The position numbers were made by a program, and so were the translations under genes. From Candidatus Gastranaerophilales bacterium (GTDB lineage Bacteria > Cyanobacteriota > Vampirovibrionia > Gastranaerophilales > Gastranaerophilaceae): a DNA stretch of 64,000 nucleotides. This document shows, one piece after another, positions 3,047-62,414 of the stretch. Numbering within the stretch: position 1 is the stretch's first letter; the number at the start of each line of letters is the position of its first letter. Location of the stretch: positions 186,001-250,000 of the forward strand of contig CALVEH010000004.1 of NCBI GenBank assembly GCA_944326545.1, in the 5' to 3' direction. A model generated the notes under the pieces. That model had not been told where the DNA came from. It did not search any database and saw only the letters and a list, made by a program, of their open reading frames with translations.

Positions 3047-3154
3047 CTAAACATTTTATCCATTCTTGCCATGATTATCTTACGAAAACAAAGTTTTTAC
3101 AACTTTTTTAGAGTCATTTTTTATTGTCTTAAAAATATATTCTATAAAATGTTT

Positions 3155-3340
3155 AATCTAGTATCGTAAACTGGCGAAAACGTTCAGTTTTCGACAGTTT
3201 ACTCACCTTTTCAATGTGTCACTCACCTACACTTAACTTTGTTAAGTTTCGGAGACAGGCTCACTAGCATCGCCACAGCTCTGCTGTTCACTTTGTCAAA
3301 AAATTTGCTCATGTTCCTTATTGCAAATTTTTCTCGGACT
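3155..3340 (-). repeat. Family A structured intergenic repeat (copy A1)
   Basis: Copy in minus orientation. Read on that strand it starts near CTCGAG-like AGAAAAATTTGC, contains GCAAATTTTT as a pairing arm, then ACAGC-AGA-GCTGT, ACTTAAC-AAA-GTTAAGT and finally CGAAAAC/GTTTTCG, and ends in TACTAGATT. Related copies lie at 19672, 21307, 21679, 51722 and 58833. It fills most of the gap between the divergent eno and SIS genes; the next promoter begins immediately after it. Confidence 0.85.
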
Positions 3341-16088: not shown

Positions 16089-16122
16089 AAAAGACCTGCT
16101 GAACAAAAGCAGGTCTTTTTTT
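16089..16122 (+). terminator. Intrinsic terminator of winged-helix gene
   Basis: AAAGACCTGCT pairs with AGCAGGTCTTT around GAACAAA and is followed by T6; repeat family B begins a few bases later. Confidence 0.9.
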
Positions 16123-16129
16123 ATTTTTC

Positions 16130-16495
16130 ATAAGGTTTCAATATCTCGGCGAACTATGATAATTGAACAGCTAATCCATATATGACAAGTCCATTCGTGT
16201 TTTTTTATAAGGTTTCAATATCTTGGCGGACTATGATAATTAAACACCTCAATTATTAACATCAAGTCCATCTACGATTGTTTAGGGGCACAGCCCCTTC
16301 CGCTACTGAATGCTTGTATTAAAAGTATTTTTATAAGGTTTCAATATCTCGGCGAACTATGATAATTAAACACCTCAATTATTAACATCAAGTCCATCTA
16401 CGATTGTTTAGGGGCACAGCCCCTTCCGCTACTGAATGCTTGTATTAAAAGTATTTTTATAAGGTTTCAATATCTTGGCGGACTATGGCAAATCC
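16130..16495 (+). repeat. Family B tandem structured repeats (array B1)
   Basis: Four units start at 16130, 16207, 16333 and 16459. Lengths are 77, 126 and 126, with the last cut after ~37 bases where family C begins. Units open with ATAAGGTTTCAATATC and carry GGACT/AGTCC-type pairing arms; the 126-base units add AGGGGC-ACA-GCCCCT (16284-16298). The two long units are almost identical to each other. The array lies between converging genes. Confidence 0.9.
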
Positions 16496-16499
16496 CCTT

Positions 16500-16663
16500 C
16501 GTCATTCTGAGGGAACGTAGTGACCGAAGAATCGCAAGGACAATTGCATTACACAAATTCGTCATTCTGAGGGAGTGCAACGACCGAAGAATCTCACAAT
16601 CTTTGTCTATCACTCCAAACTTGTGAGATGTTTCGTCTTCGACTCAACATGACGAGGTCGTTA
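16500..16663 (+). repeat. Family C 'GTCATTCTGAGGGA' repeat
   Basis: Two copies of a CGTCATTCTGAGGGA...CCGAAGAATC unit followed by a CTCAACATGACG end that can pair with the CGTCATtcTGAG start. Similar 'GTCATTCTGAG...GAAGAATC' repeats are scattered in many unrelated bacterial genomes. It directly abuts a truncated family B unit and the 3' end of glgA. Confidence 0.8.
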
Positions 16664-19466: not shown

Positions 19467-19671
19467 GAGATTAATCTCCTTTTGTTTAAATGATATCTAC
19501 TACGTCTATTGTATTTCAAATAGTTGGCTTGAAAGGCACTATATGCCCTTCCCATTATACAATCTTATATGCTCATTCTGATTTGTCAAGCAAAAACCAT
19601 GCTTTTTAACATTCTAAAACATGCATAAATTAAGGATATCCGTGCTAATCTTGATGTATGATATAACATTG

Positions 19672-19862
19672 TCTGAGAAAAATTCGTGATAAGGAGCAAA
19701 GCGACGTGAACGAATTTTTGAACAAAGCGAACAGCAGAGCTGTGGCGATGCTAGTGAGCCTGTCTCCGAAACTTAACGAAGTTAAGTGTAGGTGAGTGTC
19801 ACCTTGAAAAGGTGAGCAGTGGCGGCTCGAAGGTTCGAGGCGACAACTGCGACACTAGATTA
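19672..19862 (+). repeat. Family A structured repeat (copy A2)
   Basis: Plus orientation. AAAAATTCGT (19678-19687) pairs with ACGAATTTTT (19710-19719), where other copies have AAAAATTTGC with GCAAATTTTT, a compensated change. Then ACAGC-AGA-GCTGT, ACTTAAC-GAA-GTTAAGT, CTCGAA-GG-TTCGAG and the end CACTAGATTA. It fills the gap between the divergent tuf and zinc-ribbon genes. Confidence 0.9.
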
Positions 19863-21260: not shown

Positions 21261-21603
21261 TTCATTTCTTTCTCTTTTTTGCGAACAAAAGAGAAAGAAA
21301 CAGAATGTTCGAGAAAAATTTGCGATAAGGAACGTGAGCAAATTTTTTGAGTGACACATTGAAAAGGTGAGTCTTTGAGCTTCGAAGGCTCGAAGCGAAA
21401 AAGACGACACTAGATTAGGACCAAAGAAAGAGAAAAAACGCTGTATCAAAAAACATTGTAGGATTTTAGAGCAAATTTTGCATCCACTTCACTATGTTAC
21501 GGCCTGTCAAAATTTACTCTAAAATCTGACATTGTTTAAACAAAGTCACAACAGCATAGCTGTCTTGCACTTCGTGCGCAACTTCGTTGCAAGTGTTTTT
21601 TAG
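21261..21603 (+). repeat. Family E element (copy E3), interrupted by A3
   Basis: A divergent E copy split by repeat A3. Left part: 14-bp arms TTTCTTTCTCTTTT (21265-21278) and AAAAGAGAAAGAAA (21287-21300). Right part after A3: a stretch alignable to E2 (…CGCTGTATCAAAA), then a long hairpin GATTTTAGAG-c-AAATTTTG (21462-21480) with CAAAATTT-a-CTCTAAAATC (21508-21526), then ACAGC-ATA-GCTGT, GCAC-TTC-GTGC and GCAAC-TTC-GTTGC. No gene is evident here. Confidence 0.7.
21307..21421 (+). repeat. Family A repeat (copy A3), short form inside E3
   Basis: 115 bases from GTTCGAGAAAA to CTAGATTAGGAC. It keeps the first arm pair AAAAATTTGC (21314-21323) and GCAAATTTTT (21338-21347) and the GCTTCGA-AGGC-TCGAAGC hairpin, but lacks the two middle hairpins present in A1, A2, A4 and A6. 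It lies between the two halves of E3. Confidence 0.85.
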
Positions 21604-21629: not shown

Positions 21630-22080
21630 TCAAAATTTACACTGCATTAGCAGTATTATGGCTTTGCCATTGTAGTTTGTTCGAGAAAAATTTGCGATAA
21701 GGAACGTGAGCAAATTTTTTGACAAAGTGAACAGCAGAGCTGTGGCGATGCTAGTGAGCCTGTCTCCGAAACTTAACAAAGTTAAGTGTAGGTGAGTGAC
21801 ACATTGTTCACTATACGTGAAGACATTTTGCACGAAATCAAAGATTTCGGCAAAAGAAGTCAAAGGTGAGTCTTTGAGCTTCGAAGGCTCGAAGCGAAAA
21901 AGACGACACTAGATTAGGACTGATTACAGACTCTTTGTATTTACGTACAAAATTTTCGTTAAGCGTAGCGGTTAGAAAATTTTGAAGATAAATACTATAG
22001 AGTCTGTTTTGATATAGCGTGTTTTTCTTTTTTGGTTCATTTTTTCTTTTTGCGTCGCAACAAAAAGAAAAAATGAACAT
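21630..22080 (-). repeat. Family E element (copy E1), interrupted by A4
   Basis: Minus-orientation E copy. The part at 21922-22080 (159 bases) matches 55004-55162 with five differences. It has 18-bp arms GTTCATTTTTTCTTTTTG and their complement, and a nested hairpin with outer arms ACAGACTC/GAGTCTGT and inner AAAATTTTC/GAAAATTTT. The remaining part, at 21630-21678 beyond A4, carries ATGGC-AAA-GCCAT and ACTGC-TAAT-GCAGT read on the minus strand. Confidence 0.8.
21679..21920 (+). repeat. Family A repeat (copy A4) inserted in E1
   Basis: Long A copy of 242 bases from GTTCGAGAAAA to TAGATTAGGAC. Besides the usual hairpins it has extra ones: TTCAC/GTGAA and GAAATC-AAA-GATTTC. Left flank GTAGTTT and right flank TGATTAC join to GTAGTTTTGATTAC, which is the uninterrupted sequence in copy E2 (minus strand at 55162), so the insertion left no target duplication. 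Confidence 0.85.
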
Positions 22081-22092
22081 ATAAAAAATCAG

Positions 22093-44577: not shown

Positions 44578-45582
44578 GTGCAGAGTTTTATTATTGTTTT
44601 ATTGCTGATAATTTGTGTAGCCCTGATTGTTTGGCTTGTTTCCTTGTATTTTAAGTATCAGGAGCTTAAAAAAACTTTCAGAAATCATAAAAAAATCTTA
44701 AGAAGCGTTACTCGAACAATCAACTCTGTGCGCTACGGGAATTTGTATGAACGTGTTCCGGACGAGACTTCTTCTGTTTTACCTAATCTCTCTCAAAGCG
44801 TAAACTCTATGATTGAAGCGATTGTTGATAGAGAAGGTATGATAAAAGAATACCAAAGCGAGTTGAATAAAAAAATCAATGTTTTAACAGAAGTAGAAGA
44901 ACTCAAAGAAGATTTTGTTGCAACGCTTACGCATGATTTAAAAGTTCCGATTCTTGCCGAAAAAAATATGCTGGCATTTCTTTTAGACAATCGTTTTGGA
45001 GAACTTAACGACAGACAAAAAGAAGCCTTAGGATATTTACAAAGTTCAAACAAAGAGCTTGTTGAGCTTGTGGAAATTATTTTAGAAACATACAAACTTA
45101 ACGAAACAAAAATAGAACTCCACAAAGAAGAAAAAGACGTAAACAGTATGATTGAAGAAATCATTGAGCAAATGCGTCCGATTGCAGATACTGATTCTAT
45201 TACGATTAATTACTGGACTGAGTTCTACAATAGAGTTTCAATAGACGAGTTTTACATAAAAAGAGCGTTAAAAAACCTTATCCTAAACGCTATCTCTTTT
45301 AGCGAGCCAAGCTCAAAAATAGATGTCGCGCTATGCAATGATGACAAAAATATCTATATAAAAATCACAAACTACGGAAAAAGCATAAAACGAGAAGAAA
45401 TAGCTCACGTTTTTGATAAATACTACACTACTGCTAAAAAATTCCGTAAAGTAGGTACAGGGCTTGGGCTATACCTGTCAAACCGAATTGTTAAAGCTCA
45501 TAATGGGGAAATTATCATAGAAACTGATTCATACAATATCCCTTACACAACGTTTATGATTAAACTACCTATTTTTTTATAG
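44578..45582 (+). CDS. Sensor histidine kinase with one membrane helix
   Basis: The 334-residue kinase has a single N-terminal transmembrane helix (about 2-22), a HAMP-like and coiled region, the phosphoacceptor motif LTHDLKVPI near 120 and a HATPase domain with N box (LKNLILNAISFS) and G boxes (VGTGLGLYLS). No sensor domain outside the membrane, so it would sense a membrane or cytosolic signal. The start is GTG at 44578. No response regulator is adjacent. The stop codon TAG lies inside the first bases of the family B unit that follows (ATAGGG). Confidence 0.9.
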   Translation: MQSFIIVLLLIICVALIVWLVSLYFKYQELKKTFRNHKKILRSVTRTINSVRYGNLYERVPDETSSVLPNLSQSVNSMIEAIVDREGMIKEYQSELNKKINVLTEVEELKEDFVATLTHDLKVPILAEKNMLAFLLDNRFGELNDRQKEALGYLQSSNKELVELVEIILETYKLNETKIELHKEEKDVNSMIEEIIEQMRPIADTDSITINYWTEFYNRVSIDEFYIKRALKNLILNAISFSEPSSKIDVALCNDDKNIYIKITNYGKSIKREEIAHVFDKYYTTAKKFRKVGTGLGLYLSNRIVKAHNGEIIIETDSYNIPYTTFMIKLPIFL

Positions 45583-46195
45583 GGTTTCAATATTTTGGCG
45601 AGCTATGATAATTGAACACTTCAATTGTTGACGACAAGTTCATTCTCAACTGCTTAGGGCCGCAGGCCTTCCCACTACTAAATACATCATTTATAATTTT
45701 TATAAGGCTTCCTTATCTTGGTGAACTATGATAATTGAACATTTCAATTGTTGACTACAAGTTCATTCTCAATGTTTAGGGCCGCAGGCCTTCCCACTAC
45801 TGAATACATCATTTATAATTTTTATAAGGCTTCCTTATCTTGGCGGACTATGATAATTAAATACTTCAATTGTTGACGACAAGTTCACATTTTTTTGTTT
45901 CATAAGGCTTCAATATCTTGGCGAGCTATGATAATTGAACACTTCAATTGTTGACGACAAGTTCATTCTCAACTGCTTAGAGCCGCAGGCTTTCCCACTA
46001 CTAAATACATCATTTATAATTTTTATAAGGCTTCCATATCTTGGTGAACTATGAAAATTTCACAGCTCAATTATTGACGACAAGTCCACATTTTTTTGTT
46101 TCATAAGGCTTCCTTATCTTGGCGGACTATGATAATTAAATACTTCAATTATTGACAACAAGTCCACTTGGAGTTGTTTAGGGTGCTTTTTCATC
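45579..46195 (+). repeat. Family B tandem structured repeats (array B2, six units)
   Basis: Unit starts: 45579, 45702, 45824, 45902, 46025 and 46103, with lengths 123, 122, 78, 123, 78 and ~93. Long units carry AGGGCC-GCA-GGCCTT (45656-45670) or the compensated AGAGCC-GCA-GGCTTT (45979-45993); short ones end before that hairpin. Arms GAACT, GAGCT or GGACT pair with AGTTC or AGTCC about 35 bases later. The array lies between converging genes and holds no gene. Confidence 0.92.
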
Positions 46196-46204
46196 ATCAG
46201 CTAT

Positions 46205-47104
46205 CTATTTAGAATTTTCTTCCTGCCATTTTTGAGAAAGATCTTCGGTTATTTTTAGCCCTGTTGGTGTAGTTGCGAGACCTGCTTCAGAACTTTCTTT
46301 GAGCCTTGGTGACATCATCTCGCCTACTTGTTTCATCGCATCAACAACTTCATCTATTGGTATAACCGATTTTATACCGGCTAAAGCAAGTTCTGCGCCT
46401 GTTAGTGCATAAATTCCCAAAAACGCATTACGTTTAACACAGGGAACTTCTACCAAACCTGCTACGGGGTCACAAACGAGCCCCATAATGTTTTTTAGCG
46501 TAAGTGCCGCAGATTCTAAAATTTGCTCGTTTGTGCCGTCATAAAGCTCTGTAACAGCAGCGGCCGCCATTGCCGCAGCAACACCGCATTCACTTTGACA
46601 TCCTGCAACAGCACCTGCAAGTGCAAGTTTATTAGAAACAATTTTGCCGATAAGACCTGCTGTAATAAGGGCGTTGATTTCTTTTTCTTCATCAGCGTTG
46701 AGCTCTTGTGCTACTGCTATGATAGCTGATGGTACTATTCCGCAAGAACCTGCCGTAGGACAGGCTGCAATTTTACCCATTCTTGCGTTTTGTTCTATTG
46801 TCGCAAGCGAGTATGTTAAAACATTTTTGTGCAATTCTGAAAATAAAGACTGACCTTTTTTATACATTTCAAGAAGCTTTGCGCAATCATCTCCGCACAT
46901 TCCGCTTTGAGATTTTTCTTTTGATTTAAGCCCTGATTTTACAGCTGCTTTCATAGCGTCTAGAATGTTTTTAACCTTTGAACGCACCTCTTGTACGGAA
47001 ATTTCTGAGTCTTGAGATTCTAAAATCTGACAGATTTCGTAAAGCTTTTTATTCTTTGTTTTAGTGTCTTCTAATATGTCTGCAAAGTTTTTTTGTTTTA
47101 TCAT
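46205..47104 (-). CDS. sdaAA: L-serine dehydratase, iron-sulfur dependent, alpha subunit
   Basis: This enzyme deaminates serine to pyruvate and ammonia using a [4Fe-4S] cluster. The 299-residue alpha subunit has the cluster cysteines in CPTAGSCGIVPS, CQSECG and CDPVAGLVEVPC. Its ATG overlaps the stop of the beta-subunit gene (ATGA), so synthesis is coupled. The arrangement of separate beta and alpha subunits is that found in Firmicutes-type enzymes. Array B2 begins about ten bases beyond its stop. Confidence 0.95.
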   Translation of the reverse strand: MIKQKNFADILEDTKTKNKKLYEICQILESQDSEISVQEVRSKVKNILDAMKAAVKSGLKSKEKSQSGMCGDDCAKLLEMYKKGQSLFSELHKNVLTYSLATIEQNARMGKIAACPTAGSCGIVPSAIIAVAQELNADEEKEINALITAGLIGKIVSNKLALAGAVAGCQSECGVAAAMAAAAVTELYDGTNEQILESAALTLKNIMGLVCDPVAGLVEVPCVKRNAFLGIYALTGAELALAGIKSVIPIDEVVDAMKQVGEMMSPRLKESSEAGLATTPTGLKITEDLSQKWQEENSK

Positions 47105-49456: not shown

Positions 49457-49490
49457 CAAAACCCCTAAATCTTTTGGTTTAGGGGTTTTA
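49457..49490 (+). terminator. Intrinsic terminator of the transporter gene
   Basis: AAAACCCCTAAA pairs with TTTAGGGGTTTT around TCTTTTGG; the first family B unit starts at its last base. Confidence 0.88.
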
Positions 49491-49669
49491 TATGGCTTCA
49501 ATATCTTGGCGGACTATGATAATTAAACACTAACTCATATATGACAAGTTCAATCTTGATTGTTTTATATGGCTTCAATATCTCGGCGGACTATGCCAAT
49601 TTGACACCTAATCTGTGGGCGACAAGTCCACTCACAACTGTTTAGGGGCACAGCCCCTTCCACTAAGGA
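49490..49669 (+). repeat. Family B repeats (array B3, two units)
   Basis: Units start at 49490 (77 bases, short type) and 49567. The second has AGGGGC-ACA-GCCCCT and is then cut after ~102 bases where family C starts. Arms GGACT with AGTTC (wobble) and GGACT with AGTCC. Confidence 0.88.
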
Positions 49670-49878
49670 CGTCATTCTGAGGGAGTGTAACGACCGAAGA
49701 ATCGCAATGATTATTGCATTACACAAAACTGTCATTCTGAGGGAGTGCAACGTACCCTCACGGGTATCCTGATATGTACGGCTCGTAAACTCGCCTACAT
49801 CTCAAGCAAGAATCTCACAATTTTAAAAGTATCACGCCAAGCCTGTGCGATGTTTCGGCAAAGCCTCAACATGACGAG
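49670..49878 (+). repeat. Family C repeat with internal insertion
   Basis: Two GTCATTCTGAGGGAGTG units and a closing CTCAACATGACG. In the second unit the word GCAACG|...|AAGAATC, contiguous in the 16500 copy apart from ACCG, is split by ~57 bases (about 49754-49810) that include TACCC-TCAC-GGGTA. Confidence 0.7.
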
Positions 49879-51712: not shown

Positions 51713-51721
51713 TTTTTGAAC

Positions 51722-51832
51722 AACACGTTGAAAAGGTGAGTCTTTGAGCTTCGAAGGCTCGAAGCAAGGACTCCGTTCAGGGTTGACTAAACGTCAAGCC
51801 TTAATGGATGGGAAGACGACACTAGATTAGAC
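51722..51832 (+). repeat. Family A repeat (copy A5), partial
   Basis: Only the right half is present: GTTGAAAAGGTGAGTC, GCTTCGA-AGGC-TCGAAGC, an inserted stretch around 51767-51810, and the end GACGACACTAGATTAGAC. It begins ~10 bases after the glucokinase stop. Confidence 0.8.
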
Positions 51833-53837: not shown

Positions 53838-54953
53838 ATGGCAGACGAAAAAACGGAAGAGGCGACCCCCAAGCGGCGGGAAGACGAGCGAAAAAAAGGG
53901 AATATTGCACGCAGTCAGGATATGACTGCAGCTTTGACCATGACAACGGGCGTTGGTCTGCTTTTTGTTATGTCTCCGATGATAATGGAGAAACTGAAAA
54001 ACCTTCTTTATTATACGCTTACGCACCTTGACCCCAAAAGTATAGAGACTGATGACATTATTGCTTTGTTTGCACCTTATGCAAAAATTACGGGCGAAAT
54101 GCTTTTGCCGTTTTTGTTGGGGCTTGCTGTGGTAACTGCCTTGATTATGAGAATACAGGTAGGGGCTTTGTTTGCTACGGAAAAAATAAAGCCTAAAATG
54201 GATAAATTTCAGCCTTCAAATATTGTTCAGGCCTTAAAAAGGATGTTTAACCCTTTTGAGCCTAAAAATATGATTGAAATATCAAAATCGTTTTTGAAAG
54301 TTGCAATAGTCGGTTATTGCGGTTTTTCTACTGTTATGGGCAGAAAAGACGAGTTACTCGGGCTTTTGGGGGTTGATATCCCGACAGCTTTTGCTGTTTT
54401 ATCGAGTATTTTAACTCAGATGATTTTAAATATTATCGTTGCGATGTTGATTATTGGGTTTATTGATAAAAAATATTCTGATTACGAATATAATAAATCT
54501 ATAAAAATGACTAAACAGGAGATAAAAGACGAATGGAAAAACATGGAAGGGGATCCTGTTATCAAGTCAAAACTCAAGTCTGCACAAATGCAGTTTATGA
54601 AACAAAAAATGCTCACAGCTGTACCTAATGCAGATGTTGTTGTTGCAAATCCTACTCATTTTTCTGTAGCGTTAAAGTATGACAAATCTATTGCGCCTGC
54701 ACCTGTTGTTGTTGCAAAAGGTGTTGATTATATGGCATTTAAAATTAGAGAAATTGCTAAAGCTAACGATGTTCCTATTGTAGAAAACAAACCGCTTGCG
54801 CGTTCTTTGTACAAACTTGTTAAAGTAGATGAAGTTATCCCGGCTGATTTGTATGTAGCAGTAGCAGAGATTCTTGCATTTGTTTACGGAAAAGACGGTG
54901 CCGCAGGGGCAAAACGTATTAAAAACCCAGACCTAAACCCTAATAGAAGATAA
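53838..54953 (+). CDS. flhB: Flagellar export switch protein FlhB, paralogue 2
   Basis: A 371-residue protein with the classical FlhB start EKTEEATPKRREDERKKG, four transmembrane helices and the cytosolic domain with NPTH at 271-274, which self-cleaves to switch export from rod/hook to filament proteins. The position after fliR makes this the standard flagellar FlhB. A related copy lies 11 kb away before fliA. Right after the stop begins a half unit of repeat B and element E2. Confidence 0.95.
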   Translation: MADEKTEEATPKRREDERKKGNIARSQDMTAALTMTTGVGLLFVMSPMIMEKLKNLLYYTLTHLDPKSIETDDIIALFAPYAKITGEMLLPFLLGLAVVTALIMRIQVGALFATEKIKPKMDKFQPSNIVQALKRMFNPFEPKNMIEISKSFLKVAIVGYCGFSTVMGRKDELLGLLGVDIPTAFAVLSSILTQMILNIIVAMLIIGFIDKKYSDYEYNKSIKMTKQEIKDEWKNMEGDPVIKSKLKSAQMQFMKQKMLTAVPNADVVVANPTHFSVALKYDKSIAPAPVVVAKGVDYMAFKIREIAKANDVPIVENKPLARSLYKLVKVDEVIPADLYVAVAEILAFVYGKDGAAGAKRIKNPDLNPNRR

Positions 54954-54954
54954 T

Positions 54955-54987
54955 TTGTCATAGTTTGTCAAGATATAGAAGCCTTAT
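54955..54987 (-). repeat. Family B half unit left of E2
   Basis: Read on the minus strand: ATAAGGCTTCTATATCTTG then ACAAACTATGAC, the first ~32 bases of a B unit. A similar half unit lies at 55209-55238 on the other side of E2, cut at nearly the same point. Confidence 0.7.
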
Positions 54988-55003
54988 AGAAAAATATTTT
55001 TGT

Positions 55004-55207
55004 ATGTTCATTTTTTCTTTTTGTTGCGACGCAAAAAGAAAAAACGAACCAAAAAAGAAAAACACGCTATATCAAAACAGACTCTAAAATATTTATCTTC
55101 AAAATTTTCTAACCGCTACGCTTAACAAAAATTTTGTGCGTAAATACAAAGAGTCTGTAATCAAAACTACAACGGCATAGCCGTACTACTGCTTACGCAG
55201 TTTTTTA
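55004..55207 (+). repeat. Family E element (copy E2), uninterrupted
   Basis: Reference copy without an A insertion. In order: 18-bp A/T-rich hairpin (55007-55051 region), nested CAGACTC/GAGTCTG hairpin with inner AAAATTTTC-type arms (to 55162), ACGGC-ATA-GCCGT and ACTGC-TTAC-GCAGT. 55004-55162 matches 22080-21922 with five differences. Confidence 0.8.
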
Positions 55208-55208
55208 A

Positions 55209-55586
55209 TGATAGTTAGCCAAAATATAGAAGCCTTATAAAAAACAAATACAAATGGAATTGTCGTCTACAGATTAGGTGTCTAATTGTCATAGCTTGCC
55301 AAGCTATTGAAACCATATGAAAAAAACATCAAGTAGTGGAAGGGGCTGTGCCCCTAAACAGTTGTGAGAGGACTTGTTGTCTACAGATTAGGTGTCTAAT
55401 TGTCATAGTCTGCCAAGATATTGAAACCTTATAACAAATACAAGTGGACTTGTCATATATGAGTTAGGTGTTTAGTTATCATAGTCTGCCGAGATATTGA
55501 AGCCTTATAAAACAATCAAGATTGGACTTGTTATATATGAGTTAGGTGTTTAATTATTATAGTCCACCAAGATATAGAAACCTTAT
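55209..55586 (-). repeat. Family B tandem structured repeats (array B4)
   Basis: Minus orientation. Units begin (at ATAAGG or ATATGG) at 55586, 55508, 55432, 55318 and 55238; lengths 78, 76, 114, 80 and a ~30-base half unit. The 114-base unit has AGGGGC-ACA-GCCCCT. One unit has a perfect ATAGCTT-GGC-AAGCTAT hairpin where most units have a broken one. Confidence 0.9.
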
Positions 55587-55662
55587 AAAATACTTAATTG
55601 CTTTTTAGAGCTGTGTTTTATAATATAAATTTGTTACTTTAAGCTTGTATAAAGGAGCGAAT

Positions 55663-58832: not shown

Positions 58833-59068
58833 TAATCTAGTGTCGCAGTTGTCGCCTCGAACCTTCGAGCCGCCACTGCTCACCTTTTCAATGTGACACT
58901 CACCTACACTTAACTTCGTTAAGTTTCGGAGACAGGCTCACTAGCATCGCCACAGCTCTGCTGTTCGCTTTGTCCAAAAATTCGTTCTCGTCTTCCTCTC
59001 GCAAAAACTGACATTTAGTCAGCTTTTGTTCGGCAGAGTGCTTCTTATCACGAATTTTTCTCGGACAG
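58833..59068 (-). repeat. Family A repeat (copy A6) between rpsB and tsf
   Basis: Minus orientation, all main hairpins present. AAAAATTCGT pairs with ACGAATTTTT as in A2. The loop between them holds an extra hairpin CTGAC-ATTTA-GTCAG (AAAA/TTTT flanks). Read on the plus strand it begins AATCTAGTGTCG and ends in CGAATTTTTCTCGGACAG. Confidence 0.9.
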
Positions 59069-60190: not shown

Positions 60191-61330
60191 ATGGCAGACA
60201 AAAAACAAAAGAAAAAAATTAAAGTTGCATTCCCTCATATGGGTAATATTTATATCGCTTGGGGTTCAGCGTTAAGAAGACTTGGCATTGAACCATATAT
60301 TCCGCCATACTCAAGTAAAAGAACATTGTCTTTGGGTACAAAAAACAGCCCCGAGTCTATTTGTTTGCCTTACAAACTTATTTTAGGCAACTTTATCGAA
60401 GCCATTGAAGGCGGAGCTGATTACGTTGCGATGATTTCTTCTCCCGGTATTTGTCGTCTTGGCGAATATGGTGCAGGTATCCAAAATACTTTGGAAGATA
60501 TGGGCTATCACGCAAACTATATCGAGCTTCAACTCTATGACGGCGTAAAAGGGATGTTTAAGTTTTTAACTGAATTAAGCGGTATCAAAAACCCTGTCAC
60601 TATCGTTAGAGCAATAGTTTTTGCTTTCAGAAAAGTATTTGCTACAGACAGAATGGAAAACCTTTTGTCTTACTACAGAGCAAGAGAAATACACGCAGGT
60701 GACGCTGAAAAAGCTTTCAAAAAAGGTATGAAGCTAATCTATGAAGCTAACCACTACAAAGAATTGAAAAAAGCAGAAAAACAAGCTGCAGAGCTTATCA
60801 AAAAGACAGAAATTGACCCTAAAAGAGATGTATTACACGTTGATTTAACAGGCGAAATTTATCTTGTACAGGATCCGTTCTCTAACCAAAATATTGAAAG
60901 AGAACTCGGTAAAATGGGCGTTCAAACAAGAAGAACTCTTACTGTATCAAGCTTTTTGAAAGATGCTATCATTCCAAAAATGTTTGTTAAAGGCGAAACT
61001 CACCTTGAACGTGCTGTAAGACTTGCAAAACCTTATCTTGCAAGAGATATTGGCGGTGACTCTTTAGAGTGCGTTTCTGACATTGTTTATGCTAACGAAA
61101 ACGGAAAAGACGGTATCATCCACGTTAGCCCGTTCACTTGTATGCCTGAAATCATGTCACAAAACTTCTTCCCTGCTATTAGAGAAAATTGCGAGATTCC
61201 TATTTTGCCTTTGATTCTTGACGAACAAACAGGTAAAGCTGGTTATATTACTCGTCTTGAAGCGTTTGTTGATTTGATGAGAAGACGTAAAAGAAAAAAA
61301 GAAATGGAACTTGCTGCTTCTTCTAAGTAG
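60191..61330 (+). CDS. Acyl-CoA dehydratase activase-related protein (DUF2229)
   Basis: The 379-residue protein matches the DUF2229-type part of the 2-hydroxyacyl-CoA dehydratase activator family: VAFPHMGNIYIAWGSALRRL, SPESICLPYKLILGNFIEAI, MISSPGICRLGEYG, and HVSPFTCMPEIMSQN near the end. Cysteines in ICLPYK, ICRLG and FTCMPE are the conserved ones that may hold an iron-sulfur cluster. It stands alone; the ATPase subunit and the dehydratase are absent from the window. The biochemical role of this form is not known. AGGAG lies before the ATG. Confidence 0.82.
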   Translation: MADKKQKKKIKVAFPHMGNIYIAWGSALRRLGIEPYIPPYSSKRTLSLGTKNSPESICLPYKLILGNFIEAIEGGADYVAMISSPGICRLGEYGAGIQNTLEDMGYHANYIELQLYDGVKGMFKFLTELSGIKNPVTIVRAIVFAFRKVFATDRMENLLSYYRAREIHAGDAEKAFKKGMKLIYEANHYKELKKAEKQAAELIKKTEIDPKRDVLHVDLTGEIYLVQDPFSNQNIERELGKMGVQTRRTLTVSSFLKDAIIPKMFVKGETHLERAVRLAKPYLARDIGGDSLECVSDIVYANENGKDGIIHVSPFTCMPEIMSQNFFPAIRENCEIPILPLILDEQTGKAGYITRLEAFVDLMRRRKRKKEMELAASSK

Positions 61331-61334
61331 TTTT

Positions 61335-61910
61335 ATAAGGTTTCTATACCTTGGCAGACTATGACAATTTGACACCTGAATCAATGACAACAAGTCCACT
61401 TGTATTTGTATAGCGGCACAGCCGTTTTCACTACTTGGTGCATTCAGGCTACTTTATTTTTGTAAGGTTTCTATACCTTGGCAGACTGTGACAATTTGAC
61501 ACCTGAATCAATGACAACAAGTCCACTTGTATTTGTATAGCGGCACAGCCGTTTTCACTACTTGGTGCATTCAGGCTACTTTATTTTTATAAGGTTTCTA
61601 TACCTTGGCAGACTATGACAATTTGACACCTAATCTGTAGACGACAAGTCCACTCACAACTGTTTAGGGGCACAGCCCCTTCCACTACTTGATGTTTTTT
61701 TCATATGGTTTCAATAGCTTGGCAAGCTATGACAATTTGACACCTGAATCAATGACAACAAGTCCACTTGTATTTGTATAGCGGCACAGCCGTTTTCACT
61801 ACTTGGTGCATTCAGGCTACTTTATTTTTATAAGGTTTCTATACCTCGGCAGGCTGTGACAATTAAATACCTATTTTATTAACAACAAGTCTGTTCGCTT
61901 AAGTTGCTGT
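61335..61910 (+). repeat. Family B tandem structured repeats (array B5, five units)
   Basis: Unit starts 61335, 61462, 61589, 61703 and 61830; lengths 127, 127, 114, 127 and ~81. Units 1, 2 and 4 have AGCGGC-ACA-GCCGTT (61412-61426 in the first); unit 3 has AGGGGC-ACA-GCCCCT. Unit 4 has a perfect ATAGCTT-GGC-AAGCTAT (61714-61730). Unit 5 pairs AGGCT with AGTCT where others pair GGACT with AGTCC. Confidence 0.92.
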
Positions 61911-61978
61911 TTTAAGAGTGTGCGACAATTGCAGAATTGCTCACAATATTGATGACTGGTTACAAATTTTGTAAATTA

Positions 61979-62046: not shown

Positions 62047-62414
62047 AAGACGGCATTCCTTCACTACGTTCAGTCAGCCTAGCCAAAATCCGCTGTCTTG
62101 GATTATTGGCGTTCGCAAGGTTTAGTATTACATTTCAAATTTTTCTTTGAAAAATTTTTCATTTCATTAACCTTGCTCACATGGGCAGCTCCGTGCCCGC
62201 CCAAAATCCGCTGTCTTGGATTTTCTTCACGCTCGGAACTGTCACTCGTTGTGCTTTGCTGTTACTCGTTTCGTTCCTCGCTCCCCTGGTTCGCTATGCT
62301 TCACCAGTACGAAAATCCGCCTCTTGGATTATTGGCAGTTCGCCGAAAGCGTGGTTTCGGCTCACAAGACGGCATTCCTTCACTACGTTCAGTCAGCCTA
62401 GCCAAAATCCGCTA
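62047..62414 (+). repeat. Family D repeats adjoining asnS
   Basis: AAAATCCGCTGTCTTGGAT occurs at 62085-62103 and 62203-62221, a near copy at 62312-62329 and the first ten bases again at 62404. A CATTCCTTCACTACGTTCAG word is found at 62054 and 62367. Also GGGCA-GCTCCG-TGCCC. The last copy runs into the asnS stop codon (CTA at 62412-62414). Confidence 0.8.

Follow-up and report, generated by a model that had tools for sequence, protein, structure and literature searches.

What kind of genetic unit is the chain of hairpins that lies between tuf and a divergent small ORF in this Gastranaerophilales genome? We studied it in the window, by which we mean the whole 64-kb stretch of DNA analysed (C4:186001-250000), and in the genome that holds it (2.19 Mb in 19 contigs, hereafter G000). 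The original prediction described a repeated hairpin element present in six copies, and this observation is borne out: six right ends with CTAGATTA were found in the window, four on the + strand (19862, 21417, 21916 and 51829) and two on the - strand (58833 and 3154), as part of about 36 in the genome. The focal copy, previously delimited as 19672-19862, keeps its right boundary and begins two bases earlier. The elements of the window and the modules of the focal copy are the following.

19670..19862, + strand: focal element, 193 nt, A+B+C, subfamily F1, between tuf (- strand) and a divergent small ORF
19670..19721, + strand: focal module A, TGTCTGAG plus arm AAAAATTCGT ... ACGAATTTTT
19722..19794, + strand: focal module B (optional), ACAAAGCGAACAGCA..TGCTAGTGAGCCTGTC and ACTTAAC-GAA-GTTAAGT
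19795..19862, + strand: focal module C, GGTG-A-[GCAGT..CTCGAA..TTCGAG..ACTGC]-GA-CACT with tail AGATTA, scoring 96.1 bits with the covariance model
21306..21417, + strand: A+C element without B, 112 nt, F2
21678..21916, + strand: A+B+C element, 239 nt, F2, with a nested hairpin module in C at about 21807-21861
51719..51829, + strand: F2 C module with nested hairpin, immediately following a ROK-family kinase gene; of A, only part of the 3' arm remains upstream
58833..59067, - strand: A (with 42-nt nested hairpin)+B+C element, 235 nt, F1, just upstream of tsf; the same site is filled in the related species G015
3154..3340, - strand: A+B+C element, 187 nt, with a third C-stem form GTAAACTG/CAGTTTAC; AAAC flanks the insert on both sides and the site is empty in G015

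A complete element is laid out as A-(B)-C, that is, a hairpin A, an optional 73-nt module B of two hairpins placed between A and C, and a hairpin C. Module A consists of TGTYCGAG followed by a 10-bp arm, a small loop region beginning with GATAAG and the returning arm; module C reads GGTG-A-[stem]-GA-CACT followed by AGATTA, and extra hairpins of about 42-55 nt may be nested within either of them. Two main subfamilies were recognised in G000, F1 (arm AAAAATTCGT, C hairpin CTCGAA) and F2 (arm AAAAATTTGC, C hairpin GCTTCGA), with core lengths of 120 nt (162 nt when the A-nested hairpin is present) and 112 nt, respectively. A different closing of C, by AGTG/CACT around a CACCTT hairpin, suits F1 and was discarded, the conserved arrangement being GGTG/CACT. 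All the outer-arm and last-hairpin pairs initially described are present. The claim that the six copies share one order of hairpins is not supported: the middle module (ACAGC../ACTTAAC..) occurs in four of the six and the copy at 51719-51829 is without the 5' arm, B and the nested hairpins being optional, so that no single fixed order applies to all copies. Similarly, the loop variants GAA, AAA, TTT and TTC given for the ACTTAAC hairpin come down to GAA or AAA in the orientation of the element, TTT and TTC being the other-strand reading of these. This inverted motif (ACTTAAC-N3-GTTAAGT) has four exact matches in the window; when two mismatches are permitted, chance gives 0.55 and four is attained in none of 100 shuffles.

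The window also contains repeats of other kinds. A second family is made of tandem units of about 43-127 nt, TTTTTATAAGGTTTCAATATCTTGGCGGACTATGATAATT...ACAAGTCCA, clustered at several places:

16120-16491, + strand: second repeat family
45569-46220, + strand: second repeat family
49480-49684, + strand: second repeat family
61325-61947, + strand: second repeat family
54949-55596, - strand: second repeat family

Repeats of CGTCATTCTGAGGGAACGTAGTGACCGAAGAATCGC at 16500-16582 and 49670-49752 both adjoin clusters of this second family. In addition, a long palindromic A/T-rich repeat, TTCATTTTTTCTTTTTGCGTCGCAACAAAAAGAAAAAATGAAC, was observed at 22028-22088 and 54999-55059, and a perfect 48-bp direct repeat at 62047-62094 and 62366-62413, its copies lying 319 nt apart and overlapping predicted ORFs.

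Across G000 the covariance model detected 32 C modules, and pattern searches gave 36 right ends (26 exact and 10 with one mismatch; control 1) and 29 left ends (control 0), every left end having a right end within about 230 nt. Searching at the DNA level, we found the element in 20 of 22 congeners and in one further genus, while weaker relatives, in which the junction motifs are kept and the stems are different, were detected in another four genera of the family; within the set of genomes searched, matches were confined to the Gastranaerophilales family of the host. In named records, the exact patterns were matched by a Candidatus Gastranaerophilales MAG alone, and the element sites shared with G015 suggest that the window comes from the same genus. 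The genomes are incomplete and the copies are related to one another; the counts per relative are lower bounds, and the multi-genome sample of copies is not a random one. The congener G019 is particularly rich, with at least 147 matches to the element peptide. Twenty G019 copies with truncated matches (L235-L254) have a common nested hairpin in C, TTCACATAGTGAAGCCATTTTTCAGGC..AAGAAGGC, and a GCC/GGC stem at the place where G000 has GAC/GTC. Two element patterns gave no match in viral contigs, and the element peptide had no match in a phage collection or a plasmid collection and no homology found among solved structures. Rfam, searched at gathering and permissive thresholds, returned only chance miRNA matches and no family above its gathering score.

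Covariation was evaluated in module C using an alignment of 71 distinct sequences, in which both partners had changed in 107 cells, compared with 31 after partner shuffling, and none of 500 shuffles attained that value; with other genera added there were 110 such cells against 32 in shuffles, again with 0/500 as many. These are counts of sequences and not of independent events, on an alignment fitted to the model. Sliding the partners abolishes the signal, and in the wider alignment one position pair was found as GC, UA, CG, AU and UG. About a dozen forms of the A arms were seen, all of them perfectly complementary, and unit A in other genera, TGTCC-GA-[stem]-GA-G(T)GGCA, is closely similar to that of G000. 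Moreover, copies from other genera of the family keep the junction motifs and have stems that are entirely different, a replacement that is independent of the fitted alignment. The stems thus drift freely yet stay paired around fixed junction motifs. Covariation persisted when the covariance model and the genome search brought in more copies, and the view of a modular hairpin chain with covarying arms, as proposed from the window, gains strength from those of other species and genera. One of its hairpins did not fare as well: ACAGC-AGA-GCTGT is complementary in its common form, but 7 of the 11 distinct B modules disrupt it, a pairing of AACAGCA...TGCTaGT being kept or nearly kept across the distinct B forms. 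Regarding the strand, the folded strand is more stable than its shuffles (z -3.46, 0/200), and G-T cells outnumber A-C cells in the C stems (19 vs 6 in the genus-dominated set, 12 vs 2 in the wider set). Equal counts would be expected were both strands equivalent, therefore the folding strand is probably the listed one; the bias is modest, comes from related copies and fits RNA and single-stranded DNA alike.

Comparison of sites between close relatives demonstrated that the element is a mobile unit and that whole elements insert precisely at A-NNN sites. The lpdA site is filled in G000 and empty in both G005 and G003, and about ten sites are empty between G000 and G015; those filled in G000 and empty in G015 include the site of the 3154-3340 copy of the window, that of the L010 gene and both sites in a DUF2142 gene. 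At the best-conserved empty sites the boundary is exact, or off by one or two bases; the DUF2142 sites are diverged and less exact. In 86 of 90 copies the base at position -4 before TGTYCGAG is A. The 4-mer preceding the element equals the one following CTAGATT in 19 of the 90 (6.7 expected, z 5.6); rare right words (AAAC, AAAA, AAAG) equal the left word in the copies seen, and common ones (AGAT, AAAT, AGAA) mostly differ from it. A target duplication of constant length does not appear to be general, being clear at one empty site and absent in others. With the 4-mer repetition partial and some right words element-like, a single simple insertion rule is not established: some cases depart from simple target duplication and others from simple insertion without duplication. 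Two further observations concern insertion sites. In a single case, the filled G000 copy in L039 and the corresponding empty G015 site (L214) show a few A-to-G differences within about nine bases of the insertion; and an F2 element (L032, G000:C7:104627-104742) lies inside another repeat, whose uninterrupted copy at window positions 21920-22010 represents an internal empty site.

The same comparison showed that modules are gained or lost at fixed sites. G000 and G015, the two closest species, share twelve filled sites, nine of them with nearly equal length and the remaining three differing by exactly one module, namely the 42-nt A hairpin (at the lpdA site), a hairpin nested in C and a complete B module. 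Elsewhere in the genome (L042, C2:219854-220197) about five B-like units, each of about 73 nt, follow one another in tandem with no complete A module, suggesting that B can multiply by itself.

The B-less F1 form, either 120 or 162 nt long, constitutes one open frame which reads CPRKIRDKEQSDVNEFLECHLEKVSSGGSKVRGDNCDTRL and has no stop. The in-frame hosts of this form in G000 are lpdA, a DUF2142 membrane-protein gene that has two copies of it, and two further genes in which it is close to the start; in other species the element is in frame in lgt, a UbiA-family gene and several others, several of the in-frame cases being close to N-termini, where the true start codon is uncertain. The insert adds about 41-55 amino acids to proteins such as dihydrolipoamide dehydrogenase, the lpdA frame having 458 codons when empty (G005), 499 in G000 and 513 in G015, and its insertion point is where a solved homologue shows a short extra stretch in the alignment. 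With the insert excluded, dN/dS between the G000 and G015 lpdA genes is 0.11; the insert-carrying gene remains under purifying selection. Among the 32 catalogued copies of G000, five of nine B-less F1 elements are in genes against none of the 23 others (hypergeometric p ~0.0006). In the set of 90 copies, an open frame is found in each of the 14 in-gene copies and is lacking in 62 of the other 76, a contrast whose p-value exaggerates the case because the set was partly picked by protein search and open frames. Joining the flanks, an analysis that does not require an open element, yielded six clear interior gene insertions, all of them open F1 in sense orientation, and the few remaining joined frames resembled the ends or starts of adjacent genes. 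Frame-breaking forms inside genes were found neither in the 90-copy set nor with the joined flanks. Four apparently long frames with an internal TGA (L159-L162), considered as candidates for read-through, proved to be gene ends or starts. Judging from the frames, the in-gene inserts are probably translated.

We give a probability of about 0.75 to the reading that these are short mobile elements of one family, non-autonomous and built from two conserved hairpin units, in which the B-less F1 form colonises genes in frame. Movement of a single strand is favoured by the subterminal position of the hairpins, the weakness of the terminal inverted repeats, the fixed position in the left flank and the strand bias. 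The element would be recognised and moved as a folded single strand, most likely of DNA and possibly of RNA, by an enzyme supplied from elsewhere; modules may be exchanged between copies by gene conversion, and copies of 3n length without a stop would survive in genes as tolerated peptide inserts, a form that would widen the range of sites open to the element. No autonomous copy with such ends exists in G000, since each of the 29 left ends pairs with a right end close by. Our suggestion on how this came about is a tentative one: the fixed junction motifs around drifting stems would be what an enzyme not yet recognised acts upon, and one lineage would have evolved the stop-free, 3n gene-colonising form.

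As for the class of mechanism, IS200/IS605 derivatives and REP/RAYT elements, which go with a Y1 (HUH) transposase, are characterised by subterminal hairpins, no clear inverted ends, a fixed left tetranucleotide and mostly no target duplication, and the element resembles them in its subterminal hairpins, the want of clear inverted ends, the A at -4 and, in most copies, the lack of duplication. It is possible, at odds well below even, that the element derives from such a system, which would give our preferred class of mechanism a named partner. RAYT-like Y1 transposase genes are indeed present in 8 of 23 congeners (L199-L205), but the element does not flank them, and Y1_Tnp has no match in G000 or G015, although both genomes carry the element with insertions since their divergence; the left target is also very loose (ANNN) and some copies have an apparent duplication. 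The lack of flanking elements and the absence of Y1 from both genomes speak against a Y1/RAYT partner, that absence being compatible with mobilisation from outside or by a gene since lost. We regard as unlikely an ordinary MITE of a DDE insertion sequence, with terminal inverted repeats and a 4-bp target duplication. Such a MITE would account for the AAAC found on both sides of the 3154-3340 copy and once in its empty site, and for the excess of equal 4-mers; however, 71 of the 90 copies have no duplication, elements 22 and 30 have target sequence as their left word and element-like sequence (AGAT, AGAA) as their right one, and the ends TGTYCGAG and CTAGATT match weakly as inverted repeats (TGTTCGAG and TAATCTAG, the latter being the reverse complement of the right end, agree by eye in about 5 of 8 positions).

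The position of the element beside genes bears on a different explanation, a cis-acting RNA structure (leader or processing element) of neighbouring transcripts, selected for regulation and mobile only secondarily. Outside genes the element sits in short intergenic gaps, often 5-30 nt upstream of a start codon, and between co-directional genes it is oriented with them in 25 cases and against them in 8 (p 0.005, 33 cases pooled over genomes); the G-T bias is on the gene-direction strand as well. The orientation bias could come from selection against harmful insertions or from a regulatory role, and the sites are not conserved between species, the host genes are unrelated to each other and no Rfam family matches, making this explanation rather improbable. 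Finally, strong hairpins within conserved genes might be skipped by translational bypassing, by analogy with mitochondrial byp elements, or removed from the mRNA. Skipping would require neither an open frame nor a 3n length, yet all in-gene copies have both and none has a stop or frameshift, for which reason we consider it very improbable. The reading of a mobile element that colonises genes in frame is the one we prefer.

In closely related species one and the same site can be seen open, closed, empty, filled or module-swapped, which makes the steps from a selfish hairpin to a part of a protein directly readable. The covarying stems and fixed junctions provide a precise handle for finding the mobilising enzyme, and a warning follows for gene predictions and protein families of Gastranaerophilales, which contain a recurrent peptide of 40-54 residues of mobile origin. 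A literature search with few subscription journals within reach found no description of such repeats in Gastranaerophilales.

Two known families are the closest in kind. BOX elements of Streptococcus pneumoniae and S. suis consist of outer modules around a middle one that may be absent, single or repeated, are tightly folded, mostly intergenic and nested in each other, and have no transposase of their own (PMC3049150). Their layout is that of A-(B)-C with its dispensable and repeatable middle, as seen here in the presence or absence of B, in the B-like array and in the gain or loss of B at one shared site; the likeness is one of layout and not of aligned sequence, with no sequence match in the Rfam, phage and plasmid collections. 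Unlike BOX, whose described insertions into genes disrupt them (PMC3049150), the core form here is an open frame tolerated inside genes, and extra nested hairpins and wholesale stem replacement between genera are further differences. The Rickettsia palindromic elements (RPE), of about 100-150 bp, carry an open frame with a conserved peptide and lie in frame in unrelated housekeeping genes, the same site being kept in related species; mobile palindromes inserted in frame are known chiefly in Rickettsia and Wolbachia, with insertions mostly common to orthologues (PMC10969869, PMC3767692). In-frame insertion with preservation of the frame is shared with our element, as in lpdA, the two DUF2142 copies, lgt, UbiA and others. 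The peptide and the host, Gastranaerophilales and not Rickettsiales, are different, and it is by these and not by an RPE alignment that the two are set apart; the modular layout with exchangeable parts, the empty sites in close relatives, the A-NNN position and the cross-genus covariation also differ. The family is therefore like pneumococcal BOX in layout and like RPE in its invasion of genes, and fits neither fully.
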